Virus record (IMG/VR): IMGVR_UViG_3300045911_000143
Span: 1-64,000 of that record
Source of the DNA: a virus
Strand: one strand, 5' to 3'
Length of the DNA stretch: 64,000 nt
Shown: piece by piece, positions 1 through 63,660 of the stretch
How the letters are laid out: each line of letters starts with the position of its first letter
Numbering within the stretch: position 1 is the stretch's first letter
Program-made: the position numbers and the translations under genes
Notes under the pieces: generated by a model
What the model saw: only the letters and a program-made list of their open reading frames with translations
What the model was told of the DNA's origin: nothing
The model's database searches: none

Positions 1-1066
1 ATGGGGTTACACTAGGTGTAATACTCGGAGTTATACTTGGTGTTATACTTGGTGTAATTGATGGAGTTACACTGATAGTTGGTGTACGTGTAGGTGTAAT
101 ACTTGGTGTAATTGATGGAGTTACACTGATAGTTGGTGTACGTGTAGGTGTAATACTTGGTGTAATACTTGGAGTTACACTTATTGTTGGTGTTATTGAT
201 GGAGTAATACTTGGGGTTACACTTACGCTAGGTGTTATTGATGGAGTAATGCTTGGTGTTACACTAATTGTAGGTGTTATAGATGGAGTAATACTTGGTG
301 TTATGCTTGGTGTAACACTTATTGTTGGTGTAATAGATGGTGTAATACTTGGTGTGACGCTTACACTAGGTGTAATACTTGGTGTTATGCTTGGTGTTAT
401 ACTGATTGTTGGTGTTATACTTGGTGTAATGCTTGGTGTAACACTTACGCTAGGTGTAATAGATGGTGTAATACTTGGTGTGACGCTTACACTAGGTGTA
501 ATACTTGGTGTTATGCTTGGTGTTATACTGATTGTTGGTGTTATACTTGGTGTAATTGATGGTGTAATACTTGGGGTTACACTTATTGTTGGTGTAATAC
601 TTGGTGTGACGCTTACACTAGGTGTAATAGATGGTGTAATACTTGGTGTAATACTTGGGGTTACACTTATTGTTGGTGTAATAGATGGTGTAATACTTGG
701 GGTTACACTTATTGTTGGTGTAATAGATGGTGTAATACTTGGTGTAATACTTGGTGTAATACTTGGTGTTATACTTACACTAGGTGTTATGCTTGGTGTT
801 ATGCTTGGTGTTATGCTTGGTGTTATGCTTGGTGTAATGCTTGGTGTAATGCTTGGTGTAATGCTTACACTAGGTGTAACACTTGGTGAAATGCTAACTG
901 ATGGAGTTAAAGTTATAGTTGGAGTTGGAGTACGTGTTACTGATGGTGTTAATGATGGTGATGGTGTTTTTGATGGGGTTCGAGATGGTGTAATTGTTAT
1001 TGTTGGTGTAATACTTGGTGTAGTAGATGGTGTTATCGATATTGTCGGTGTTACTGAAGGCATAGG
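1..1066. repeat. 12-bp minisatellite encoding (I/V)TPS tetrapeptides
   Basis: A degenerate tandem array of about 88 units of 12 bp (plus-strand form ggtgtaatactt and variants) occupies the first 1.07 kb and continues past the window edge. Read on the minus strand each unit gives Ile/Val-Thr-Pro-Ser/Thr. Longer blocks of several units are repeated almost identically (for example around 330-420 and 440-530), which points to recent expansion by slippage or unequal recombination. The array encodes the stalk of the fibre gene. Confidence 0.9.
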
Positions 1067-2008
1067 GGTGGGGGTTAATATGTTTACATATATCGGTTCT
1101 TTCGGTTTAAACAATATGCTAGTTTTATTTAAAATTATACCCACCTGCTGAATGAAACCCACCAATGGGGGGATTGTTGAAAAACTACCAGTCGTACTCA
1201 AATAAATTGGTGTACCAAAAGAGTCTGTAAAATTCCAATTAGAATTGGTAACTATACCATCAGTTTCATATTTTATAACTTGGCCGGTTGTAGCAGTATT
1301 CAGAGCTATACCAAAAACAGGTTTGTCTGTAGTTCTATCTGCAAGACCTATACCATCAGCGTAAAAACTTAAAAGATTACCATATGTAATATTTTCTCTA
1401 GCGACAGATAACTTAGACAAATCTGATATTTTTATTTGATTTTTGAATTCAATGTTAGATTCAGTCTCAGTGACAAAATAAATTACATCATCTATTCCTC
1501 TGACTAATCTTGGATTATTAAGACTATCCATTTTGATTTTATCAACAAATACTTTTTCGTTCTCTGAAACTTGTGTATTTGTGTGGATAATGTTTAACTT
1601 ATTATTGCTAATTTTAGCTAGGACGCAACCAATCTTTTCTATCCATGCATAACCGTTCCATTGTGTTAATATTTTTTTCTTATTGTCAAAGAAGAACTGT
1701 CCTATCTGTGGGTTACTTGGATATATTACGCCATTGATAAGTGGATTTAACGAAGTTAATACAAATTCTTTTTGTGCAGTTACGCGATCTAAAATAACTA
1801 AAAGCCAGTATTCTGAATCATCGGGAACAATGGCGACGTTTTTAATATCGTCGTTTATTTCCACGAGATAATTTTTAGAATAAAAACATAGATTTAGTAT
1901 TATAGGCGCAGTGGAACCTTTTATACTAATCTTACCATCTTTAATTACAATTGACGGTAAAGGCTCTTCTCCAATTTGTACCACTCCCTGTCTAAAATTC
2001 AATATCAT
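1..2008 (-). CDS. Virion fibre/structural protein with long Thr-Pro-Ser stalk (partial)
   Basis: The minus-strand frame opens at ATG 2008, overlaps the stop of the upstream structural gene (ATGA), and stays open to the window edge, so the C-terminus is missing. Residues 1 to about 310 form a mixed, probably globular region typical of phage baseplate or fibre proteins. From about residue 312 the chain becomes an uninterrupted series of tetrapeptides of the type I/V-T-P-S/T for more than 350 residues. No catalytic motif is seen. The overlap with the upstream gene implies co-translation. The stalk is mucin-like and a plausible target for the glycosyltransferases at 18.6-21.7 kb (inference). The assignment as virion protein is inferred from composition and neighbours. 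Confidence 0.75.
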   Translation of the reverse strand, partial: MILNFRQGVVQIGEEPLPSIVIKDGKISIKGSTAPIILNLCFYSKNYLVEINDDIKNVAIVPDDSEYWLLVILDRVTAQKEFVLTSLNPLINGVIYPSNPQIGQFFFDNKKKILTQWNGYAWIEKIGCVLAKISNNKLNIIHTNTQVSENEKVFVDKIKMDSLNNPRLVRGIDDVIYFVTETESNIEFKNQIKISDLSKLSVARENITYGNLLSFYADGIGLADRTTDKPVFGIALNTATTGQVIKYETDGIVTNSNWNFTDSFGTPIYLSTTGSFSTIPPLVGFIQQVGIILNKTSILFKPKEPIYVNILTPTPMPSVTPTISITPSTTPSITPTITITPSRTPSKTPSPSLTPSVTRTPTPTITLTPSVSISPSVTPSVSITPSITPSITPSITPSITPSITPSITPSVSITPSITPSITPSITPSITPTISVTPSITPSITPTISVTPSITPSITPSITPSVSVTPSITPTISVTPSITPSITPSITPTISITPSITPSITPSVSVTPSITPSITPSVSVTPSITPSITPTISITPSITPSITPSVSVTPSITPSITPTISVTPSITPSITPSITPTISVTPSITPSITPSVSVTPSITPSITPTISVTPSITPSITPTRTPTISVTPSITPSITPTRTPTISVTPSITPSITPSITPSITPSVTP

Positions 2009-3174
2009 GATTTAACAATTTCTGGATATACGTTTTCTATAATAGATTCACTAGAATATATGTCTGAATTTTTATATACTAGAAAATCAACATCATTTAA
2101 AACAATTTCGCCTAGATCAATTATTTTATCTTTTATTTTATCAATAAAAGAATATGGCGATTTAGATAATAACAATATTAAACCCTTTTGTTGTAAAGGT
2201 TCTAATACACCAGTTCCATAATCTATTCTAGTAAATTTTATTGTAGTTCCTTCTGGTATATCATCAAATTTTAATTCGGCGTTATCAAAAGTATCGAAGT
2301 CCAAAATGCTTTTTGTTCTAATATAGTAACTTTTTCTTTTATTAAGTAGTATCTCGTCCCAATCTGACCAAGGCGATCCTTGGTTTTTTGGAAACAATGT
2401 TTCCAAACATATAATCGGTTGATCATTTGGTTTCTGTATAATAACTTCTAAACGTATTTCAGCATTCTTTAAGTCGTATGGTAAAGATGGCATTTCAAAC
2501 CAAAATTCCGTACTCGGTGGTGAATTATTTAAATCGCTGGTATGTTGTTTTTGACAACTATATCTTTTACCTTGATAGGTAATAACTTTACTTAATGTAT
2601 AAGATACCCCGGTTTGCCATTCTTGTATTGTATAATCAACAAAGTTGAGTTTCGTCAAAAACTTAGGTATTGCAAAAGTAAATATTCCATTATTTGTGAT
2701 TTTAAACAAGTTTTCTTGAGCCTGTACTCTATCAACAAACTTTTCAGTAGAGCTTCTAGATAAGCAATGTATTTTTCCTCTTCTAGCAGTTAAAAATATA
2801 ATTTTTAAAGTATTGTTATCTATTATCTGTACATTATAATTTGAAGTTTTAAGTTGAGTATATACCCCTTCTTGATTTAAATCATAAATGGTTATAGATG
2901 GAAAACAGTTCAGATTGTGTTCAACTGTCCATTCAGAAGACGGAGATTTAATTTCTGTTTGAAAAAAGTTCAATCTTTGAGAGTAGTCTTCTAGACTACT
3001 AACAAATGGTGGTACTGTTTCTCTTAGATTGTCTGGATTTCTGGATATTTTATATAACTTTCCACGACATCCATCTGTTATAATACATTTAGAAAATACG
3101 GTCAACCCTCGTAAATTCTCAACCTTTTCAATTTCTCGCAGACAGGTGTCACATTTATATTTTATAGTAGCCAT
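2005..3174 (-). CDS. Virion structural protein with zinc-ribbon-like N-terminus and CBM5/12-like module
   Basis: 389 aa. The N-terminus has paired cysteines (CDTC at 8-11, further Cys at about 30 and 36) that look like a zinc ribbon. At about 180-235 the pattern W-x-G-x-x-Y, then V-x-Y-x-G-K-x-Y-x-C, then a terminal F-W resembles chitin-binding modules of the CBM5/12 type, which occur in phage adsorption proteins. It precedes the Thr-Pro fibre gene and its stop overlaps that start, so the two are probably one late operon. Role inferred: baseplate or tail-fibre component contacting a surface polysaccharide. Confidence 0.6.
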   Translation of the reverse strand: MATIKYKCDTCLREIEKVENLRGLTVFSKCIITDGCRGKLYKISRNPDNLRETVPPFVSSLEDYSQRLNFFQTEIKSPSSEWTVEHNLNCFPSITIYDLNQEGVYTQLKTSNYNVQIIDNNTLKIIFLTARRGKIHCLSRSSTEKFVDRVQAQENLFKITNNGIFTFAIPKFLTKLNFVDYTIQEWQTGVSYTLSKVITYQGKRYSCQKQHTSDLNNSPPSTEFWFEMPSLPYDLKNAEIRLEVIIQKPNDQPIICLETLFPKNQGSPWSDWDEILLNKRKSYYIRTKSILDFDTFDNAELKFDDIPEGTTIKFTRIDYGTGVLEPLQQKGLILLLSKSPYSFIDKIKDKIIDLGEIVLNDVDFLVYKNSDIYSSESIIENVYPEIVKS

Positions 3175-3330: not shown

Positions 3331-3969
3331 TTATATGAAATCTTCTATGTTCTTAAATTGGAAACATTTCAAACTACTTTCTTTATTAAGATTGTATACA
3401 TTTATTCCAATTCTTGACAGCCCATCAGCCATAGATTTTATTGAAGGTATGAACTTTTCTTTATAAATTTCATTTGTACCGTGGCATATATGCTTATCAT
3501 GATAATTAGCTTTACCGGTTGGTGAAACATGCATATCAAAACCTAATAGAAGAATTTCTCTAGCTTTACAACTATATGCTAAATGTATTGCGTTTGCACC
3601 CGAATTATTTCCTCTTATTTTATATTCTTGCGGGTCAAGGCCGAAGTCACCTGTTTTATGCAAAATTTGACAATTTCCATACCCTAGCTTTTTACCTCTA
3701 TCGTAAAGACTGTTACAAAATGGTTTTGGATGAAATCTTAATCTTATTTGACTTTCTTCAAGCAACCTGTGATTATTAGCAGCCCACGGTTCGTCGGCCC
3801 AAATCCATGCTGTTGCTTCTGGTAACAACTCTGCTGCGTTGTTTGTAACAATTACTTGCTTTCCATTTAAAAAGCTTAAATCCATGTTTTTTAAACTTGG
3901 ACCGCCACCAATAATAAATACTTTTCTACCGGCTATTTTAGATTTTAATTCTTGAAAAAAGTCTGGCAT
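3331..3969 (-). CDS. DUF115 / MptE-like Rossmann-fold protein
   Basis: 212 aa. A nucleotide-binding loop GGGPSLKN sits near residue 22, followed by an N-S-G-A-N-A motif and LLLGFDM in the second half. This order is characteristic of the DUF115 family, which includes the Maf motility accessory factors that glycosylate flagellin and 6-hydroxymethylpterin pyrophosphokinase-like proteins. Phage members are common but their reaction is unproven. A TATAAATA late promoter lies 32 bp upstream. Lying next to the Thr-Pro fibre gene, it may act in fibre modification (inference). Confidence 0.6.
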   Translation of the reverse strand: MPDFFQELKSKIAGRKVFIIGGGPSLKNMDLSFLNGKQVIVTNNAAELLPEATAWIWADEPWAANNHRLLEESQIRLRFHPKPFCNSLYDRGKKLGYGNCQILHKTGDFGLDPQEYKIRGNNSGANAIHLAYSCKAREILLLGFDMHVSPTGKANYHDKHICHGTNEIYKEKFIPSIKSMADGLSRIGINVYNLNKESSLKCFQFKNIEDFI

Positions 3970-9133: not shown

Positions 9134-10111
9134 ATGGCAATTATTACACATCTTTATGATGTTGACCAACAAATATGGTTCATAAATTCTTTGAATCAGA
9201 TATTCGCTGGAAAAATAAAGCAATTTAAAGGTAAAATTTTCTCTGATATAAATCAAAATATTATAGAAGAGAAAACATATGTTGTTGAATATAAAGATTA
9301 CAATCAAAAATTACATTCTATTTTTGTTTTAGAGGAAGATATATTTGCGTCATTAGAAGATGCAGTGTATTTCTTACAATCACGATTAATAACTGGAACT
9401 CCATTACCGTCAATAACTGCCACTCCTGTTCTAACTGTAACTCCTACTATGTCGATTACACCATCGACTACAATAACACCAACTGTAACACCTTCTGTCA
9501 CACCTACTATTACACCTACAGTATCGGAAACTTCTGGAGTGACACCTACGCCTTCTGTTACTCCTACTATTACGCCTACTGTGTCAATCACACCATCACC
9601 TACACCGACCGTGACTCCATCTGCAACGCTTAATGGGCTTTCAATATTTGGGGATGATAGTGCTGGCACATCCAGCAACCCCGGTGGTAGTGATAAGGGT
9701 ATTGTATCACAGTTTATTATGCCAGTAAATGGTAATATACAATCTTATTATGCACACTTCGCAGCCAGTAGTTTAAGCGGCGCATCTGCAAAAATTATTA
9801 TATATTCTTCAGTTGCAAATATGCCTGATACTTTAGTTCTAGTCAGTGACGCAAATACAATACCGGACGGAGGAGGTTGGGTACAATTTAGTGGAAATGG
9901 TTCTCTACCCGCTGGAACCTATTTTATGGGTGTTGTTTATAATAGTTTCGAAGCTAACATATCATGCGATAATGACGGTGGAACCTATATAACTAAAATG
10001 ACTAACGGGAATTTAAGTTATACGTCGCCACCAACAACATTTCCTACAGATTCAATAGTAGACTACACTGATATACAAGTCAATGTGTATGCTGAATACT
10101 TACCGAGTTAA
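9134..10111 (+). CDS. Thr/Pro-rich structural protein with C-terminal beta-rich domain
   Basis: 325 aa. Residues 1 to about 85 are homologous to the whole of the next gene (10115-10381). Residues about 90-170 are Thr/Pro repeats (TPSVTPT, ITPT) like the fibre stalk at 1-1066. Residues about 175-325 are Gly/Ser/Thr-rich and probably beta-structured. The three-part layout resembles a fibre or head decoration: anchor, stalk, knob. AAGGATTAATA precedes the start. Confidence 0.65.
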   Translation: MAIITHLYDVDQQIWFINSLNQIFAGKIKQFKGKIFSDINQNIIEEKTYVVEYKDYNQKLHSIFVLEEDIFASLEDAVYFLQSRLITGTPLPSITATPVLTVTPTMSITPSTTITPTVTPSVTPTITPTVSETSGVTPTPSVTPTITPTVSITPSPTPTVTPSATLNGLSIFGDDSAGTSSNPGGSDKGIVSQFIMPVNGNIQSYYAHFAASSLSGASAKIIIYSSVANMPDTLVLVSDANTIPDGGGWVQFSGNGSLPAGTYFMGVVYNSFEANISCDNDGGTYITKMTNGNLSYTSPPTTFPTDSIVDYTDIQVNVYAEYLPS

Positions 10112-12849: not shown

Positions 12850-13545
12850 ATGGACCATATTACTTTTTTGAATTCAAAAAATAGATGTCACAGGGATGGT
12901 GATGAGCCTGCCGTGATTTTGGCAAGTGGTACTCAGTATTGGTACAAGGATGGCAAACTTCACAGAGATGGCGATGGGCCTGCTGTGGTTTGGGCAGATG
13001 GTAAAAGGGAATGGTGGAAGGATGATAAACTTCACAGAGATGGCGATGGGCCTGCTGTGGTTTGGGCAGATGGTAAAAGGGAATGGTGGAAGGATGGCAA
13101 AATTCACAGAGATGGAGACAAGCCTGCTATGATTTATGCAGATGGTACTCAATATTGGTATAAGGATGACAAAATTCATAGGGGCGGAGATAAACCTGCT
13201 ATCATTTCGGCAGATAGTTCTAGGGTATGGGTTAAAGATGGCAAACGTCACAGGGATGGGGACAAGCCTGCTGCGATTTATGCAAATGGTAGTCAGTATT
13301 GGTACAAGGATGGCAAACGTCACAGAGATGGAGATAAGCCTGCTGTGATTTATGCAGATAATAGTAAGTATTGGTACAAGGATGGCCAAATTCATAGAGA
13401 TGGAGACAAGCCTTCTATCATTCGTGCAGATGGTACTCAGGAATGGTGGAAGGATGACAAACGTCACAGAGATGGAGACAAGCCTGCTGTGATTCATCCA
13501 GATGGTAGAAAGGAATTTTGGGTTAATGGAAGACGAATCAAATGA
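12850..13545 (+). CDS. Nine-unit HRDGD tandem-repeat protein
   Basis: 231 aa built almost wholly of nine 23-residue repeats of the form H-R-D-G-D-x-P-A-V-I-x-A-D-G-x-x-x-W-x-K-D-G-x. Units 2 and 3 are nearly identical at DNA level, indicating recent duplication. The layout recalls MORN-like beta-hairpin repeats. Related proteins occur at 42977-43357, 63208-63660 and, as fragments, at 13542-13766 and 53527-53646. The open frame on the opposite strand is a by-product of the repeats. Function unknown. Confidence 0.8.
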   Translation: MDHITFLNSKNRCHRDGDEPAVILASGTQYWYKDGKLHRDGDGPAVVWADGKREWWKDDKLHRDGDGPAVVWADGKREWWKDGKIHRDGDKPAMIYADGTQYWYKDDKIHRGGDKPAIISADSSRVWVKDGKRHRDGDKPAAIYANGSQYWYKDGKRHRDGDKPAVIYADNSKYWYKDGQIHRDGDKPSIIRADGTQEWWKDDKRHRDGDKPAVIHPDGRKEFWVNGRRIK

Positions 13546-18594: not shown

Positions 18595-19239
18595 ATGAAA
18601 GTTGACTTTGGTAATAGAAAATGGAACGGTAATGGTAGCATATGGTATAAAGACCAAGTGATGATGCAAAGCGAACTGATATATCCAGTTTTTGAAGAAT
18701 TTTTTAAGATTAATAAGTTTGATAAAATGATAGAGATAGGCACGGCATATGCAGGATTTTCTTTATTCTTGGAAGATTTAACAAAAAAAGATGGAACAAA
18801 AATAATAAGTTATGATATTATGCCTATAGAAAATATGCCGTTTCATGAAGCGTCACCAAACAAAAGAATTGAAAAATCAAAATATGTATTAGAGTCATCC
18901 ATTGACTTTAGGATAAAAAATACATACACTCAAGAAGTTCAGCAAGAAATCAAAGATATTATCCATTCATCTGGTCGATGTGCAGTATTCTGTGATGGCG
19001 GAAATAAGCCTAAAGAGTTAAATATTTTTGCTAATATTATAAAGTCAGGAGACTTTATTTTTGCACATGATTATGCACAATCGCCTGAATACTATTCAGA
19101 AAATATTTTAAATAAATATTGGCGTTGGTCTGATTGTTTTTATAGTGATATAAAAGACTCTGTTGAAAGCAATAATATAAAATTATATTATCCAGAATAT
19201 TTTGAAAAAGTTGCATGGTTTTGTGGAATTAAAGAATGA
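18595..19239 (+). CDS. Class I SAM-dependent methyltransferase-like protein
   Basis: 214 aa. Motif I reads M-I-E-I-G-T-A-Y-A-G-F (about 45-55), a post-I acidic S-Y-D follows (about 74), and C-D-G-G-N-K-P-K-E-L (about 135-144) resembles the Methyltransf_24/cephalosporin-hydroxylase-like group, which often acts on sugars. The stop overlaps the GT10-like start. Its place at the head of three glycosyltransferases suggests sugar O-methylation (inference). Confidence 0.65.
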   Translation: MKVDFGNRKWNGNGSIWYKDQVMMQSELIYPVFEEFFKINKFDKMIEIGTAYAGFSLFLEDLTKKDGTKIISYDIMPIENMPFHEASPNKRIEKSKYVLESSIDFRIKNTYTQEVQQEIKDIIHSSGRCAVFCDGGNKPKELNIFANIIKSGDFIFAHDYAQSPEYYSENILNKYWRWSDCFYSDIKDSVESNNIKLYYPEYFEKVAWFCGIKE

Positions 19240-20231
19240 AAACAATAAGAATAACAAGAGCAAATTTTCCAGAAAATGGAATGTTTTCATGGATGAATTA
19301 TTTTAAATGGATATTAGAAAAGAAATATAATGTAATAATTGATTCAAAAACCCCTGATATTGTTTTTTGGACTAACTTCCATAATGAGGGGAAGAATATA
19401 GATCATTATACAAAAGACTTAAATCACACTATAGATAAGTTCCCAAATGCAAAAAAAATCTTTATAACTGGTGAATATTTTAATCATAGTGCATACTCAA
19501 ATGTTTTAGCTTCAGGCGAAGATCATTATGCGCTTGGATTCTGTGATGCAATGGAACATGAGTCTAGATATTTGAGATTTCCAACTTATGTACTTGATAC
19601 TTGGGTGCTTTATGATGAGTCTAGAATATTTGATGAACCTTTCTCTTGGTTGACTAAACCAAAAGACCCCGAGAAAATGTTCAATAAATTTAAGCGTTTC
19701 TGCTCTATTGTTCAAGCCAGTGATAATCCAGTGCGTGGTAAGCTGTTTGATTTACTTATAAAATACAAACCTATTAAAAGTTCTGGCCCTTGGCGACCAA
19801 CTGTAGAACCAAACGAGTTGCCAGAAAAATATTTGTACTTACAACCGGAATACATTGGTCGTGTAGATGGATTAACATATAGAAGTAAAATTGAATTCTT
19901 CAAAGATTGTAAATTTAATATAGCGTTTCAATTCACTGATACTCCATGTTTAACACAAGAGAAGATTGTACATGCATTTGCAGCAGGAACTATTCCTATA
20001 TTTCATGGTAATAATAGAATATCTGAAGACTTTAATCCTGAAAGTTTTATCAATGCTCACAGTTTTAATTCTTTTGAAGAGTTGACGGAGTATGTTATAA
20101 AAGTAGATCAGGATGATAATTTATGTAAGAAAATATTGGCAGCCCCATATTGTCATAATAATACTTTACCTGAATACTATTCTTCTGAAAGATTGCTATC
20201 ATTTTTCGAAAAGGTGATAAATGCAATATAA
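19236..20231 (+). CDS. GT10 family alpha-1,3-fucosyltransferase-like glycosyltransferase
   Basis: 331 aa. The GT10 signature runs from about 225 to 285: C-K-F-N-I-A-F-Q-F, T-Q-E-K-I-V-H-A-F-A-A-G-T-I-P-I, H-G-N, D-F-N-P-E-S-F-I-N-A-H-S-F. These bind the GDP-sugar in bacterial and animal fucosyltransferases. No membrane anchor, as in bacterial and viral members. Overlaps both neighbours (ATGA and 11 bp), so it is one operon. Confidence 0.85.
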   Translation: MKTIRITRANFPENGMFSWMNYFKWILEKKYNVIIDSKTPDIVFWTNFHNEGKNIDHYTKDLNHTIDKFPNAKKIFITGEYFNHSAYSNVLASGEDHYALGFCDAMEHESRYLRFPTYVLDTWVLYDESRIFDEPFSWLTKPKDPEKMFNKFKRFCSIVQASDNPVRGKLFDLLIKYKPIKSSGPWRPTVEPNELPEKYLYLQPEYIGRVDGLTYRSKIEFFKDCKFNIAFQFTDTPCLTQEKIVHAFAAGTIPIFHGNNRISEDFNPESFINAHSFNSFEELTEYVIKVDQDDNLCKKILAAPYCHNNTLPEYYSSERLLSFFEKVINAI

Positions 20232-20958
20232 TATATTATTCTGTACTTTAGCAGTTGGTAAAGAATATAATGGCTATGCACAAAGATTATATCACACATT
20301 ACAAAAAGTCCTCGGTTGTCCATTATTAATAGTAACTGATAACATAGAATATTTTAAAAATACACCTAAGAATAATTTAATTCTTCGAGAATTAACAAAA
20401 AATTATAAAACAGAAATAAATTGGGCTAATAATTATGCCCCCTTTAACTATAATTTAAAATTTCTTCCTATAAAATTCGCTAGAAAAGATTCAAAAGAAA
20501 ATAAAAAATTTGATTTCATTTTCTTTGTGGATTGTGATTGGTTTTTAAGACAATCTCATTCTAAGCATAAATTTAATTTAGAGTTGCAAGGGCTTGGCGA
20601 ATACGATGCTTTAGCTGGAAGAGATTTGAGATTATTTCATGAGAAGCAAAATAGACAACTAATCCCTATACAAAAGTTAGAACTTTACAACTTATATAAT
20701 ACAACTAAGTATGATCAAGCTCAAATCGTCAATGAACAATATCTTTTATTTCGAAATAGTGATAAATTAGATGTGTTTATTGAATCATGGGAAAAATTAG
20801 AAAAGATATGCTCCGATAATAATGGAATTGCATATGCTGAAGGTTTAGAGATAGGAATGTCTGCAATAGATGCTAATATTAAATTTAAGATATCTAATAT
20901 TGTAGGAGATTTATTTTGGTTTTATAGTAATAAACAATTAACATATTTCGGAGCATAA
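20221..20958 (+). CDS. GT-A-type glycosyltransferase-like protein
   Basis: 245 aa. F-F-V-D-C-D-W-F (about 100-107) provides a D-x-D metal/nucleotide-sugar motif and I-V-N-E-Q-Y-L-L-F-R marks a conserved downstream strand. Family not assigned. It lies between the GT10 and PLOD-like genes with tight spacing. Confidence 0.6.
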   Translation: MQYNILFCTLAVGKEYNGYAQRLYHTLQKVLGCPLLIVTDNIEYFKNTPKNNLILRELTKNYKTEINWANNYAPFNYNLKFLPIKFARKDSKENKKFDFIFFVDCDWFLRQSHSKHKFNLELQGLGEYDALAGRDLRLFHEKQNRQLIPIQKLELYNLYNTTKYDQAQIVNEQYLLFRNSDKLDVFIESWEKLEKICSDNNGIAYAEGLEIGMSAIDANIKFKISNIVGDLFWFYSNKQLTYFGA

Positions 20959-20959
20959 A

Positions 20960-21694
20960 ATGAAAGATTTAATAGTGGTAACTGTATTATATAACTATCC
21001 AACTTTTGCTTTACCTATTTTTTACAATAGAGCTTTACAATATTTTGAACCAACAGACATACATACATTTAGATTTGAAAGTTTTAATGATGAAGAGTAT
21101 ATAAAATTCTCTAACGGAGAAAATGATTACTACTCAAAACTGTTCTTTTATAAAACAGTAAAGTTGGTGCGAGAACTACGGAATATTCAGAACGAATCTG
21201 AGCATATCTTGTTTTTGGACGCGCTAGACACTGCAATTATAAAAGATAAAAACACAATACTTGAAAGGTTTAAATCATTTGATTGCGACATTGTTTTAGG
21301 TGCTGAAAAGGGATTGTGGCCTGTTACGGAGTTTACCGACCAGTATAATAAAATTCCTTCTTCACATGAAACTAAATACTTGAACTCTGGTACTTATATT
21401 GGTAAAACATATAAGGTTATAGAGGCTTTAAATAAAATTGTTACTTTTGGTAGAGAAAAAGTTTTAGAAGACCAAGGTGCTTGGACTCGCCTTTTTTTAT
21501 CAAATGAAATGAATATAAAAATAGACTATGATAGAAAATTATTTTTTTCTACACATGAGTCAAAGGAAAAACTCATTATAGAGAATGGTGAATTTAAAGG
21601 ATTTCTAGATACTGATCCTTGTGTTATTCATGATAACGGTCCATACAATGATCAATTGACTTTTAAACTAGCTGAATACTATAAAATAGGTTAA
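20960..21694 (+). CDS. PLOD/collagen-type glycosyltransferase-like protein
   Basis: 244 aa. The pattern I-L-F-L-D-A-L-D-T-A-I (about 83-93), D-I-V-L-G-A-E, Y-L-N-S-G-T-Y-I-G, E-D-Q-G-A-W-T and C-V-I-H-D-N-G-P follows the glycosyltransferase domain of lysyl hydroxylase/PLOD and procollagen galactosyltransferases. Such domains transfer Gal or Glc to hydroxylated repeat proteins. Together with the Thr-Pro stalk genes this supports a protein-glycosylation role (inference). Confidence 0.7.
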   Translation: MKDLIVVTVLYNYPTFALPIFYNRALQYFEPTDIHTFRFESFNDEEYIKFSNGENDYYSKLFFYKTVKLVRELRNIQNESEHILFLDALDTAIIKDKNTILERFKSFDCDIVLGAEKGLWPVTEFTDQYNKIPSSHETKYLNSGTYIGKTYKVIEALNKIVTFGREKVLEDQGAWTRLFLSNEMNIKIDYDRKLFFSTHESKEKLIIENGEFKGFLDTDPCVIHDNGPYNDQLTFKLAEYYKIG

Positions 21695-29697: not shown

Positions 29698-30417
29698 ATG
29701 GAAGTCAATAGAAAGTTTGGTAGAATAGAAGTTTTAGACAGCAGGGATTCACTATATCCAGTTTCTACCATGTTACCACAGCAAAATTTTATCGAAGAAA
29801 AATATTGGTGGGCTGATGGATGGTGGGGTGACCAAAGAGATACATCGGAATGTGTTGCTTATTCTTGGATACATTGGTTAGAAGATGGCCCTGTTGTACA
29901 AGATGGAATTGAAAACCGTGCAAAACCTATCTTCAATCCAACTTCCTTTTATAAGGAAGCACAATTGAGAGATGGATTTCCCGGAAATAATTACAATGGT
30001 TCTTCTGTAAGAGCAGGTGCCAAAATTCTTAAAGAATTAGGTATTATAAAAGAATATAGATGGGCTTTTAGTTTATCCGATGTGGTTGGATGTTTACTAA
30101 ATTTAGGCCCCGTAGTGGTAGGCACGAAATGGTATGGCGACATGTATAAGCCAAATAGCCGTGGGTTTGTTAAACTATCTGGGGCTGATATGGGCGGCCA
30201 TGCATATTTACTGAATGGTGTGAACACCAAAGAGCAAGTGATTAGATTTAAAAACTCTTGGGGTAGAAAATGGGGGGATGATGGCCACGGTTATATCAGT
30301 TTTAAAGATTTTGCTGAATTACTGACTAGAAATGGTGATGCATGTATTGCATTTGAAGTCAAATTAGATAAACTACCATTACTAGAGAATTTAAGCCCAG
30401 CAGTTGATCAAATGTAA
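29698..30417 (+). CDS. Papain-like (C1A) cysteine peptidase
   Basis: 239 aa. Active-site pattern: Q-R-D-T-S-E-C52-V-A-Y-S-W, G-G-H168-A-Y-L-L-N-G-V, F-K-N186-S-W-G-R-K-W-G-D-D-G-H-G-Y-I. No signal peptide and no clear pro-domain, so it would act inside the cell or in the virion. Targets unknown; processing of host or phage proteins is possible. Rare in T4-like phages. Confidence 0.85.
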   Translation: MEVNRKFGRIEVLDSRDSLYPVSTMLPQQNFIEEKYWWADGWWGDQRDTSECVAYSWIHWLEDGPVVQDGIENRAKPIFNPTSFYKEAQLRDGFPGNNYNGSSVRAGAKILKELGIIKEYRWAFSLSDVVGCLLNLGPVVVGTKWYGDMYKPNSRGFVKLSGADMGGHAYLLNGVNTKEQVIRFKNSWGRKWGDDGHGYISFKDFAELLTRNGDACIAFEVKLDKLPLLENLSPAVDQM

Positions 30418-32474: not shown

Positions 32475-33075
32475 TCACCGCAAATCGTACCCATTAGCAA
32501 ATTCGTGATTCACATCTCGATGCTTCATCTCATCATTCCTAACTGCAATCACCACATCTCTCAAGGTTGCAGATGCATCAAGATTCCAATACTTAATGGC
32601 AATCAAAGGTGCAGGAGTATTAGGAATAGAACCAGAATCAATCTCTTTTAAAAACTCCGTATAGCTATAAACTGCCTCTTCCTCAAAGTACCCAACAATT
32701 CTATGTGCAGTCTTAGGAGCAATAATGTATATAATAAGGTAAACATGCCAGAATATACCTTGAGCCAATAGTACCAATAACCTCTCAAACCACGTAGGCT
32801 TTGCAATCTCTATGAAAGTCATCAAGTGCATTCTTTCATTCTCAGCCTCATCCAACAGAGTATGGATTATAGGACCATAGCCTGTTTTCATCTGTCTAAG
32901 ACTCTTAAGATGAATCCACATACCAGCAACCATCCCCGGAACCGCTGCTACAGTTTCCAAAACAACTGCTCTATGACCATATCTCTTTTTAAAGAATGTA
33001 TCAGCAAGGAAACGTAAAGATTTGGTAAAGAGTTTTGCAAACTTATCAGAAAGAGTAATAGGGGGTGTGTGTCAT
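32475..33075 (-). CDS. aox: Alternative oxidase, needing a one-base frameshift
   Basis: The di-iron ubiquinol oxidase signature is complete: [37 protein letters not shown], the six ligands of AOX. It transfers electrons from quinol to oxygen without proton pumping, as a monotopic membrane protein. The good frame is open only from about 33059 and has no ATG; it begins inside a run of five C (33061-33065, minus strand). Starting at ATG 33075 and dropping one C gives [12 protein letters not shown] joined to the oxidase, 199 aa in all. So this is a homopolymer error, a frameshifted gene or a very recent pseudogene. A TTG at 32960 would remove the N-terminal helix. Confidence 0.85.
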
Positions 33076-33096
33076 ATGAATAAGAATTTTCAAGTC

Positions 33097-33104
33097 TATT
33101 TATG
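33097..33104 (-). promoter_or_regulatory. Late-promoter variant before the oxidase
   Basis: Minus-strand CATAAATA 21 bp before the candidate start codon at 33075, like the variants before the genes at 28287 and 30931. Confidence 0.4.
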
Positions 33105-33540
33105 GGGTGTTACCAAAAATTTCCTAGGCCGAAAAAATTTTCTGGGAAAAATTTTTTGAGGTTTGAAATTTCAAAAATATTCGAAAAATGGCTGTGGAAA
33201 TATCGGCAAACTTGTTTTTAAGATTCAGGAATGTGGTAATACCGTGATATAATATTGTAAGAGGTTTAACAAAATTTGTAAGGAATATTGTAAGGAATAT
33301 TGTAAGGAATATTGTAAGGAATATTGTAAGGAATATTGTAAGGAATATTGTAAGGAATATTGTAAAAAGGTTTTAACAAAATTTGTAATTTATATTGTTT
33401 TCGGTCGAGCAACCCCCATACCCTCTATTTTATCACGAAAAAAAAGTAAGTCAATATTTTCCCAAACTTGTTTTTTGCTTTTACGATTGTACTACATAGT
33501 ATCCCCTACAGTATAACATAGCGTTATACTGTAGATCAAG
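33105..33540. other. AT-rich non-coding junction
   Basis: About 430 bp without a gene. It contains oligo-A/T tracts (33115-33185), the iteron array, and at 33506-33534 a perfect 12-bp hairpin CTACAGTATAAC with 5-nt loop that would follow the gene at 33543 on the minus strand. Base composition changes here from strongly AT-rich to mixed. Confidence 0.6.
33262..33392. repeat. 12-bp iteron array flanked by direct repeats
   Basis: Seven exact head-to-tail copies of GGAATATTGTAA (33282-33365) with an eighth partial copy (AATATTGTAAG) at about 33251. The array is bracketed by a near-identical 20-bp sequence (GGTTTAACAAAATTTGTAA on the left, GGTTTTAACAAAATTTGTAA on the right). The layout resembles iterons of replication origins or partition sites. 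Confidence 0.85.
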
Positions 33541-33542
33541 CC

Positions 33543-33719
33543 TTACTCATAGTCCAACTGAATGGTATTATCGGAGTCGCAATAATTAACTGAGGTTATC
33601 GCCGTCCATCCACCCAACGGGGGATAAGGATTTTCATCAGGATCATACACTTGAAAAACTTGAACTTCGGCGTCACTCGGCAACTTTTGCAATTTGGCAA
33701 TTAATTCTGCCACCTTCAT
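33543..33719 (-). CDS. Small hypothetical protein
   Basis: 58 aa from ATG 33719 (AGGGAGAATAAA upstream). M-K-V-A-E-L-I-A-K-L-Q-K-L-P-S-D-A-E-V is a helix-turn opening common in small phage proteins. It directly follows the 42-aa membrane protein. Confidence 0.75.
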   Translation of the reverse strand: MKVAELIAKLQKLPSDAEVQVFQVYDPDENPYPPLGGWTAITSVNYCDSDNTIQLDYE

Positions 33720-33720
33720 T

Positions 33721-33849
33721 TTATTCTCCCTTGATGATTGCTGGAACAAATTGAACCAGCAATTTGATACTACACCAAACGAGGCCAATGATGCAAGCAG
33801 CCTGCGCAAACGGGAGAATGATTACGGAATACCAGAATGATTCAGTCAT
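33721..33849 (-). CDS. Small membrane protein
   Basis: 42 aa from ATG 33849, largely hydrophobic (residues 8-38). Its stop is 1 bp from the next start. Transcribed from the palindromic promoter at 33893-33929. Confidence 0.6.
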   Translation of the reverse strand: MTESFWYSVIILPFAQAACIIGLVWCSIKLLVQFVPAIIKGE

Positions 33850-33892
33850 GCTACTATCTCGTAATCATTCTCATCTTCATGATGGGAAACCC

Positions 33893-33929
33893 TTGACAAT
33901 AGTATTGCATATTGGCATACCGTTGTCAA
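33893..33929 (-). promoter_or_regulatory. Sigma-70 promoter inside a palindrome (copy 1)
   Basis: TTGACA (33929-33924), 17 bp, AATACT (33906-33901). The -35 and the sequence beyond the -10 are arms of an imperfect inverted repeat (TTGACAATAGTAT and its complement with two mismatches). It is the weakest copy of the set of three. Confidence 0.65.
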
Positions 33930-33942
33930 GGGTTATATTACA

Positions 33943-34143
33943 TTAACCGGTGGTCACTGCACTTCCACGGATAAGGCCACCGAAGCCAGCCTTTTCCATC
34001 GCTTCGTTCCACTGGTGCCCGGAGAGTCGCACCACGTGATCCATCTTACCATTGAGGCGAGGCGTGGTGACATTCGGAAGATTGACAAATATGGACTTGC
34101 GGCGACCTTCGACCATGAAGGAAATCAGCGTCAGTTTGTTCAT
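33943..34143 (-). CDS. Small hypothetical protein
   Basis: 66 aa from ATG 34143; a longer open frame upstream is not genic. Basic. GGAGAAAGACA upstream. Own promoter at 34172-34206. Confidence 0.7.
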   Translation of the reverse strand: MNKLTLISFMVEGRRKSIFVNLPNVTTPRLNGKMDHVVRLSGHQWNEAMEKAGFGGLIRGSAVTTG

Positions 34144-34171
34144 TGTCTTTCTCCGGTGAGTGGTGGCGAGT

Positions 34172-34206
34172 GACAACAGTATCGCATATTGGGATACTGT
34201 TGTCAA
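34172..34206 (-). promoter_or_regulatory. Sigma-70 promoter inside a palindrome (copy 2)
   Basis: TTGACA-17-GATACT on the minus strand. GACAACAGTATC (34172-34183) and its exact complement (34193-34204) flank a 9-bp spacer, covering -35 to past the -10. This is the expected shape of a repressor operator. Confidence 0.75.
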
Positions 34207-34211
34207 GGTTC

Positions 34212-34409
34212 TTAGTAATAGTCCTCGGAGTAATAGTCCTCGCGGTAAGGCTTCCTGATGAAGAATCCCATACTGCGGGCACGGTAGATAATCATGCTGG
34301 CCACAACAATCGCCACGGTTGCCGACAGCCACAGCGGGGCAAAGTATGCCACAACCCAAACAGTCAGCACGTCGAGGGACAGCAGAATGGCGGCGGTAAG
34401 GTTGCTCAT
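34212..34409 (-). CDS. Small membrane protein
   Basis: 65 aa from ATG 34409 (GGGAGAAAAAC). Two hydrophobic segments (about 4-22 and 26-40), then a basic/acidic tail ending in a repeated D/E-D-Y-Y. Promoter at 34435-34469. Confidence 0.7.
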   Translation of the reverse strand: MSNLTAAILLSLDVLTVWVVAYFAPLWLSATVAIVVASMIIYRARSMGFFIRKPYREDYYSEDYY

Positions 34410-34434
34410 GTTTTTCTCCCGTCGGTTGACCAGT

Positions 34435-34469
34435 GACAACAGTATCGCATGATGCGTTACTGTTGTCAA
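34435..34469 (-). promoter_or_regulatory. Sigma-70 promoter inside a palindrome (copy 3)
   Basis: TTGACA-17-GATACT. Arms GACAACAGTATC (34435-34446) and GTTACTGTTGTC (34456-34467), one mismatch, 9-bp spacer GCATGATGC that is itself palindromic. Confidence 0.75.
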
Positions 34470-34474
34470 GGGTT

Positions 34475-34684
34475 TTAGTAAGTATCTCGGTTATATACCG
34501 CTTCGTCGAATCTCGCAGATTCAAAGAAACGCCATTCCTGTTCGGCCTTTTCTCCCGTGAAGATTTTCTTGGTGCGAGGATAGTAAAGGATCATGGTGCC
34601 AGCGTTGAAGGGGTTGCCGTAAAAGTCCCGACCAGCATACTTGGCCTTGATCCAGCGGGGGTCATCACGGTAGGAAGTCGCCAT
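34475..34684 (-). CDS. Small hypothetical protein
   Basis: 69 aa, start preceded by GGAGATATGACCA. Own promoter TTGACT-17-TATAAT about 30-60 bp upstream. Charged and aromatic, unknown. Confidence 0.7.
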   Translation of the reverse strand: MATSYRDDPRWIKAKYAGRDFYGNPFNAGTMILYYPRTKKIFTGEKAEQEWRFFESARFDEAVYNRDTY

Positions 34685-42976: not shown

Positions 42977-43357
42977 TTAGGGGTTATACTGTTCTCCATT
43001 TACCCACCACTCTTGTGTTCCGTCAGAACGGATTACAGCGGGTTGGCCATTGTCGCGGTGACGTACTCCGTTAACCCACCACTCTTGTGTTCCGTCAGAA
43101 CGGATTACAGCGGGTTGGCCATTGTCGCGGTGACGTTCTCCATTAACCCACCACTCTTGTGACCCATCGGGGTGAATTACAGCAGGTTGGTCTCCAAGGC
43201 GGTGCTTTACTCCGTCCTTCCACCAGCCTTGATACCCATTAGTTAGAATTAAAGCCGGTAAATCATCTCCTCGATGCCGAACACCATACTGATTTTGGTA
43301 CTCAGTCCGTATTAGCCTGCCGTCATCATCAAAAGTTTCTAGCCTATTGATCGTCAT
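42977..43357 (-). CDS. HRDGD-type repeat protein
   Basis: 126 aa from ATG 43357 (TTGGAGATAATA). Unique N-terminus L-I-R-T-E-Y-Q-N-Q-Y-G-V-R-H, then four 23-aa repeats of H-R-x-x-x-x-P-A-V-I. The last two units are almost identical at DNA level. TATAAATA late promoter at 43379-43386. Same family as 12850-13545 and 63208-63660. Confidence 0.8.
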   Translation of the reverse strand: MTINRLETFDDDGRLIRTEYQNQYGVRHRGDDLPALILTNGYQGWWKDGVKHRLGDQPAVIHPDGSQEWWVNGERHRDNGQPAVIRSDGTQEWWVNGVRHRDNGQPAVIRSDGTQEWWVNGEQYNP

Positions 43358-43445
43358 TATTATCTCCAATTTTTGGGATATTTATAATAGTATTTCATGA
43401 TGGAAATCTAGGATTCCATCATCTCCCAAAAATGTTTTCACACTT

Positions 43446-63207: not shown

Positions 63208-63660
63208 TCAAATTTTTACAGTTTTATACTTTACTCCATTTTTATACCATGCTTTGCCACCATTAGGCCAAACTACGGCAGGTTCATCACCATCTCGGTG
63301 CAATACTCCGTATCTGTACCAACATTGTTTGCCATTAATGCATATAGACGCAACCTGATTATTCTCTCTATGCCGCAACCCAAATTTGTACCAGTGCATT
63401 TCTCCATTTGGAAATATAATGGAGGGTTCATCACTGTCACGATGGAGAACACCGTTATAGTAGTAGTACAGCCTGCCGTCAAAGTATTCTAATGCAGGTA
63501 AGTCATTGTTTCTATGGAACAATCCATCCTTAAACCAAGCCTTACTACCATTACTCCAGACTATTGCAGGTTCATCATCGTCACGATGAATTACGCCAAA
63601 TTCGTTACGGTATTCTACTCTTGAAAATTTACCGTCTTTGATTTCAACTTTCGTTAGCAT
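63208..63660 (-). CDS. HRDxD-type repeat protein
   Basis: 150 aa with five diverged 23-aa repeats (H-R-D-D-D-E-P-A-I, H-R-N-N-D-L-P-A-L, H-R-D-S-D-E-P-S-I, H-R-E-N-N-Q-V-A, H-R-D-G-D-E-P-A-V) and an N-terminus with the same Y-x-N-x-x-G-V layout as 42977-43357. It overlaps the gene upstream by 17 bp. Repeats here are old compared with those at 12850. Confidence 0.75.
   Translation of the reverse strand: MLTKVEIKDGKFSRVEYRNEFGVIHRDDDEPAIVWSNGSKAWFKDGLFHRNNDLPALEYFDGRLYYYYNGVLHRDSDEPSIIFPNGEMHWYKFGLRHRENNQVASICINGKQCWYRYGVLHRDGDEPAVVWPNGGKAWYKNGVKYKTVKI

Follow-up and report, generated by a model that had tools for sequence, protein, structure and literature searches.

Phages that glycosylate their own virion proteins are already known. 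Capsid and tail-tube proteins of mycobacteriophages carry C-terminal glycans (Freeman et al. 2023 as cited in PMC12619734), and proteomic analysis of the Xanthomonas jumbo phage XacN1 revealed at least two glycoproteins, for which phage enzymes are suggested as makers (PMC5852040). In large aquatic phages four core glycosyltransferase groups have been described, with no acceptor assigned (PMC12619734). Enzymes of CAZy family GT60 transfer alpha-GlcNAc onto Thr of Trypanosoma cruzi mucins (PMC3769586), and the GT60 member Gnt1 acts on hydroxyproline of Skp1 (PMC6939170). Here we analyse four genes at positions 18595-21694 of a stretch of viral DNA of 64,000 nucleotides (hereafter the window; IMG/VR record IMGVR_UViG_3300045911_000143), which encode a methyltransferase and three glycosyltransferases. 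These genes rather likely supply the extending and capping steps of a mucin-type O-glycosylation system that the phage itself encodes for Thr/Ser-Pro-rich (TP) stalks of the virion.

The decoration of TP stalks is proposed as the role of this cluster because its neighbourhood is conserved in relatives, because a GT60 gene leads it in related phages, and because glycoproteins have been reported in XacN1. The same substrate had been proposed in a sequence-only reading of the window; these three lines of evidence support it, and the collagen reasoning then offered for it is weak (see below). A wider claim, that a lineage-spanning phage mucin-type O-glycosylation pathway (GT60, PLOD, GT10, a GT6-like enzyme and methyl caps) is dedicated to the adjacent TP virion stalks, has in our judgement about even chances. 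We know of no earlier complete mucin-like O-glycan system in viruses of bacteria.

The four-gene cluster and its enzymes

The four genes lie on the same strand, with a 4-bp overlap, an 11-bp overlap and then a 1-bp gap, and since they overlap or abut on one strand they look like one operon (Table 1). In this respect the sequence-only reading was accurate: its coordinates are exact, the open reading frames (ORFs) are real, and its enzyme calls (a methyltransferase, a GT10-like enzyme, a GT-A enzyme and a PLOD type) are borne out by profiles, by PDB sequences and by a model of the third protein. No match to phages was obtained by blastn with the whole cluster or by tblastn with the methyltransferase and the GT6-like protein.

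The product of gene 1 matches PF04989 (RMNT_CmcI) at 7.9e-4 and 19.6 bits, below the Pfam cut-off of 23.2, and its homologue at locus L285 scores 25.2 bits, above that cut-off; homologues of gene 1 keep the same neighbours across 20 viral loci, L009 and L109 among them. Gene 2 is by profile a member of GT10: it matches PF00852 at 4.3e-9 and 36.7 bits (cut-off 23.9), which places the C-terminal donor-binding domain of GT10 in the protein, the N-terminal domain (FucT_N) is recognised in Pfam at 6.3e-6, and the Helicobacter pylori FucT (PDB 5zoi) is matched at 9.2e-18. Identity is 66% to the GT10 of L285 and 44-53% to the remaining cluster homologues. The first step toward GDP-fucose is catalysed by GDP-mannose 4,6-dehydratase, and of 8 cluster-bearing records tested 4 have a gene resembling it, while the window's record has none; two of these genes were compared with models, and both fit gmd best, at a score slightly under its strict cut-off. 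Their presence would be fitting for the predicted fucose donor of the GT10 enzyme. As to a bacterial origin of this GT10 subfamily, a pattern search of limited reach through 84,980 genomes found no relative.

Gene 3 has no Pfam family and no sequence match. Its AlphaFold2 model (predicted local distance difference test score 77.4, predicted template-modelling score 0.82) has a Foldseek match at 3e-9 and, in VIA-align, aligns best with BoGT6a (Z 14.4, 215 residues, 3.7 Å, GT-A fold); the entries found by VIA-align are mostly GT6 at 8-12% identity, so that the assignment is one of fold and not of GT6 membership. The motif D104-x-D106-W107, which includes a DxD, is invariant (alignment A11). On this model, the protein is a GT-A enzyme that is GT6-like by fold only.

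Gene 4 is by profile a stand-alone GT_PLOD domain (PF25342, 1.6e-23, above cut-off). PLOD-type enzymes glucosylate galactosyl-hydroxylysine within Gly-X-Y collagen, not Pro-rich chains, and the premise of the sequence-only reading that collagen glycosyltransferases act on Pro-rich proteins is weak: no PF13640 hydroxylase, the one hydroxylase family searched, was found in 14 records (the window's, the 315-kb relative G133 and 12 further cluster-bearing ones), and no Gly-X-Y repeat ORF lies within the window. Human LH3 is matched at 1.4e-8 among PDB sequences. Residues D87, D90, E116, W120, N142, D171, Q172, H224 and N226 are invariant in 10 phage sequences, and gene 4 keeps the metal-binding DxxD/His and the equivalents of LH3 E141/W145/N165/D191/Q192/N255, with LH3 D190 replaced by E170; work on LH3 and mimivirus R699 has shown those residues either to be required or to lie in the active site (PMC10342707, PMC11838735). 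Since R699, of the same PLOD-GT type, is able to glucosylate glucose itself (PMC11838735), a sugar acceptor would be reasonable for gene 4 by analogy. The protein alone gave no match in IMG/VR.

GT_PLOD domains also occur in a different setting in the cyanophages S-CAM9 (L004, 1203-10062) and S-PRM1 (L007), where a tail-fibre gene is followed by two 2OG-Fe(II) oxygenase genes and a GT25-GT_PLOD fusion. The collagen triple-helix repeats of the tail-fibre gene were confirmed in S-CAM9, and this gene set is a candidate phage operon for collagen hydroxylation and glycosylation.

The cluster and TP genes in related phages

A search with the GT10 profile gave 20 loci, of which one is a fragment; when L109 is counted as well, homologues of all four window genes are found together at 20 viral loci. 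The usual order, locally reshuffled, is GT60-[methyltransferase]-PLOD-GT10-GT6like-CmcI-HtrL/GT2. After removal of GT10s more than 90% identical, 12 non-redundant clusters remained, of which 8 have a TP-rich ORF at most two genes away, as against 1 of 679 control ORFs from chance-selected viral loci. The probability of at least 8 of 12 by chance is 7e-16, or 1e-7 at the most liberal background, figures to be read with the shared ancestry of the loci in mind, which are not strictly independent. At L009, retrieved by the GT10 search, the four homologues lie inside an 8-gene block with TP-rich ORFs on both flanks, while L109, fetched by TP-repeat DNA alone, carries the four homologues and an HtrL/GT2 gene next to a TP ORF; L109 and L293 have identical GT10s and are probably one phage. 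At L285 the TP ORF is six genes off, and L288 has no upstream sequence.

Closer relatives of the window's clade were searched for, and only L285/G133 was found. G133 (315 kb) carries the cluster in the window's gene order, as GT60-CmcI-GT10-GT6like-PLOD-HtrL/GT2, at ~5 kb from a TP ORF, and it is syntenic with the window over the TP ORF, the CBM gene, the MptE-like gene, NrdA, NrdB, the cluster and genes at 28-30, 47 and 51 kb. Its cluster sits beyond the TP ORF, in the direction in which the window contig is cut; the window's four genes are at 18.6 kb.

The leading gene of the operon block belongs to PF11397 (GT60), with 1.7e-72 in L009 and 3e-79 in L285, and is present in G133 and in almost every relative whose cluster has intact flanks. 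Of the 21 GT60 loci nearest that of L009, 14 have a TP ORF as the next gene upstream (gap of 31-57 bp) and 4 have it two genes upstream. GT60 genes are carried by 23 of 79 viral records selected for TP repeats and by 3 of 50 controls (p 9e-4), a comparison that is conservative because the reversed-pattern TP control was partly contaminated with TP-repeat contigs; the three control matches look like one phage. Outside the operon, GT60 genes, with 364 relatives in IMG/VR, are also widespread in environmental phages, as are TP-rich ORFs (L153-L211, L012-L131); just upstream of the more distant GT60s there is often a gene the size of HtrL/GT2, in place of the TP ORF.

Among cultured phages, XacN1, RAS14 and CM1 have GT60 (43-47% identity) and HtrL/GT2 (39-43%) genes, the values for XacN1 being 47% (ORF334) and 43% (ORF330). 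The end of the XacN1 operon is ~3 kb from ORF325, which lies downstream of baseplate-wedge genes and whose 3313-aa product contains a PTPTPTTTP tract; in RAS14, too, a large ORF with a similar TP tract is found close to the operon.

The TP proteins of the window

The two mucin-like Thr-Pro-Ser proteins of the sequence-only reading are both real. In the first, the tract of TPSI/TPTI/TPSV units holds 78 TP dipeptides and is cut by the contig end; its third codon positions vary, whereas the first two are constant in every Thr and Pro codon, so it is the peptide and not a DNA repeat that is kept. The N-terminal part has a weak match to phrog_20787, "virion structural protein" (8.3e-7), and a syntenic TP ORF is present in G133. 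The second protein, in which the tract stands between two domains, matches phrog_15511 at 4.6e-7. As a class, TP proteins often lie in virion-gene regions, since the sampled neighbours of 115 IMG/VR TP loci include portal, sheath, baseplate and head-morphogenesis proteins as well as glycosyltransferases. A 300-aa GV-repeat ORF at 249-1151(+) comes from reading the TP tract in antisense and is an ORF-calling artefact.

Table 1. Genes of the cluster, putative acceptors and neighbouring genes in the window
Feature	Position	Strand	Product and remarks
CmcI/rhamnosyl-O-methyltransferase-like methyltransferase (gene 1)	18595..19239	+	214 aa
GT10 alpha-fucosyltransferase-like enzyme (gene 2)	19236..20231	+	331 aa
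GT-A glycosyltransferase, GT6-like (ABO/alpha-1,3-Gal(NAc) transferase) fold (gene 3)	20221..20958	+	245 aa
PLOD/collagen-glucosyltransferase-type GT domain, without hydroxylase domain (gene 4)	20960..21694	+	244 aa
Mucin-like TP protein, putative acceptor	1..2008	-	669 aa visible; 311-aa N-terminal part and 358-aa tract
Second mucin-like TP protein, putative acceptor	9134..10111	+	325 aa; TP tract of ~80 aa, flanked by an N-terminal and a C-terminal domain
389-aa protein with CBM5/12 domain	2005..3174	-	PF02839 1.4e-7; 4-bp overlap with TP gene start
MptE/DUF115-like protein near TP gene	3331..3969	-	PF01973 7.5e-7, below Pfam cut-off

Proposed pathway and alternative explanations

In the proposed pathway, a GT60 polypeptide alpha-GlcNAc-transferase would start the glycan on Thr/Ser within the TP[ST][IV] repeats of fibre or decoration proteins of the virion, hexoses would be added by the GT6-fold enzyme and the PLOD-type glucosyltransferase and fucose by the GT10 enzyme, giving a short branched glycan, and methyltransferases of the CmcI/FkbM type would cap it, the product of gene 1 supplying an O-methyl group. 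The virion would thereby gain stiff stalks with a coat of sugar. Within this scheme, extension by the PLOD-GT and the GT10 enzyme is probable. No transmembrane segment was detected by hydropathy in the enzymes tested, which would be fitting for a cytoplasmic protein acceptor.

Several points weigh against this pathway. We infer the acceptor, the identities of the sugars, the order of the steps and the presence of the glycan on this phage's virion, and on the TP tracts themselves no glycan has been observed. The window's 78-kb contig holds neither a GT60 nor an HtrL/GT2 gene; the GT60 of this phage may lie just off the contig or may have been lost. Distances of 8.5 kb and 16.6 kb separate the cluster from the window's TP genes, whose placement in the virion is suggested by weak profile matches, and the full clusters of L286 and L287 have no TP ORF within ~5-7 kb. 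Moreover, adjacency of a TP ORF is rare among GT60 loci more distant from that of L009, 56 of the 79 TP-rich phage records have no GT60, and TP motifs are not clearly commoner in the records of distant GT60s than in controls (12/43 vs 7/41).

The alternative that retains most weight, although an unlikely one, is that the enzymes remodel the lipopolysaccharide or capsule of the host during infection, e.g., against superinfection, the TP genes being those of receptor-binding proteins that happen to be neighbours in a variable region. GT10 genes do occur in such company, in S-SKS1 within a large carbohydrate cluster with nucleotide-sugar epimerases and in the uncultured phage LR756508 among sugar-nucleotide and other glycosyltransferase genes; the MptE-like gene of the window has a weak WaaZ-like match, and the name HtrL/YibB comes from an E. 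coli gene near the lipopolysaccharide-core genes. However, the enzyme that leads the cluster in relatives belongs to a polypeptide-acceptor family and is coupled to TP genes at 31-57 bp, and the operons contain no recognisable flippase-type or membrane gene, in line with the hydropathy result above.

Less probable again is that the glycans go not to the TP tracts but to a different protein of the virion (capsid, tail tube or the 389-aa CBM protein). The C-terminal glycans of mycobacteriophage capsid and tail-tube proteins, as cited in PMC12619734, offer a precedent, and the clusters of L286 and L287, with no TP ORF nearby, would agree with it; the adjacency repeated across the loci is nevertheless to TP ORFs and not to recognised capsid genes.

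A collagen-like route, with hydroxylation of Pro or Lys in the fibres followed by glycosylation of the hydroxy-residues by PLOD and GT60 enzymes, is very improbable: the S-CAM9 and S-PRM1 gene sets and the action of Gnt1 on hydroxyproline (PMC6939170) speak for it, but neither the hydroxylase family nor the Gly-X-Y ORF that were sought, in the 14 records and in the window respectively, were found. Modification of phage DNA, with glycosylated hypermodified bases, can be set aside with similar confidence, for although phage glycosyltransferases often act on DNA and a thymidylate-synthase-family gene lies ~3 kb from the G133 cluster, that gene scores as an ordinary thymidylate synthase, above the curated cut-off of TIGR03284, none of the other 7 records tested yielded a member of the family, and to our knowledge all characterised members of the cluster's families act on sugars or polypeptides.

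The decoration of TP stalks would bear on a wider class of proteins. Thr/Ser-Pro-rich proteins are common in environmental phages, where a scan for TP-rich DNA returned at least 120 stretches, and we know of no explained function for them; if the proposed pathway is correct, the glycosylation operon would account for some of them at least: they would be mucin-like stalks that are stiff and that may be protected against proteases or host recognition. Mucin-type O-glycosylation, known from eukaryotes, would then also have evolved or been recruited in phages.

Other genes of the window

Next to the first TP gene, the CBM protein, a putative part of a fibre or adhesin, has a 35% homologue in the same position in G133. 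The sequence-only reading had placed a DUF115/Maf-like gene beside this TP gene; such a gene is present, with its MptE-like match below cut-off, and it is matched at 4.3e-30 by PHROG 4603, "alpha-2,3-sialyltransferase", which makes it a possible further transferase (36% to its G133 homologue). At 29698-30417(+) lies a gene that by eye resembles a C1A (papain-type) peptidase, with a Cys and an NSWG motif and 59% identity to a G133 homologue. A family of HRDGDKPAVIYADGSQYWYKDGK-type repeat proteins is found at 12850-13545(+), 42977-43369(-) and 63208-63660(-) of the window and at 15542-18273 of L002, with about five tandem paralogues at the far end of the contig.

The record that holds the window is 78,354 bases long and is probably a fragment. 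Its G+C content rises from ~30% to ~45% around 33000-34500 and is higher from there to the window end. A chimeric contig was considered as the source of this jump and rejected: window genes at 47-52 kb are also matched in G133, and since synteny with G133 extends to both sides the contig is taken as one genome, a chimera being unlikely.

Comparison with known systems

The sequence-only reading had regarded a phage O-glycosylation system of this make-up as new. Virion glycosylation as such is known, as stated above; what stands is that neither the operon nor its link to TP proteins is described in the literature searched, which covers few subscription journals.

The GT_PLOD enzymes of cyanophages S-CAM9 and S-PRM1 and of mimivirus (L230, R699) have the same active-site residues as gene 4, and in the two cyanophages the glycosyltransferase gene adjoins its likely fibre substrate. 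There the acceptor is a collagen Gly-X-Y protein accompanied by hydroxylases, whereas the searches of the window gave neither. Mycobacteriophages resemble the proposed system in that phage-encoded glycosyltransferases act on virion proteins, with the difference that the acceptors there, as cited in PMC12619734, are the C-termini of capsid and tail-tube proteins and not long TP repeat tracts. XacN1 shares with the window's relatives a GT60 and an HtrL/GT2 gene near a giant TP-tract protein, but GT10, PLOD or GT6-like genes of the window's type were not found in it by tblastn. With the mucin-type O-glycosylation of T. cruzi and Dictyostelium, the proposed system has in common a Thr-rich, Pro-containing acceptor, a GT60 initiator (here in the relatives, the window contig being without one) and the stepwise action of separate transferases. 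By contrast, the phage system would be cytoplasmic and encoded beside its acceptor gene, with PLOD, GT10 and GT6-like enzymes as extenders and methyl groups as caps.

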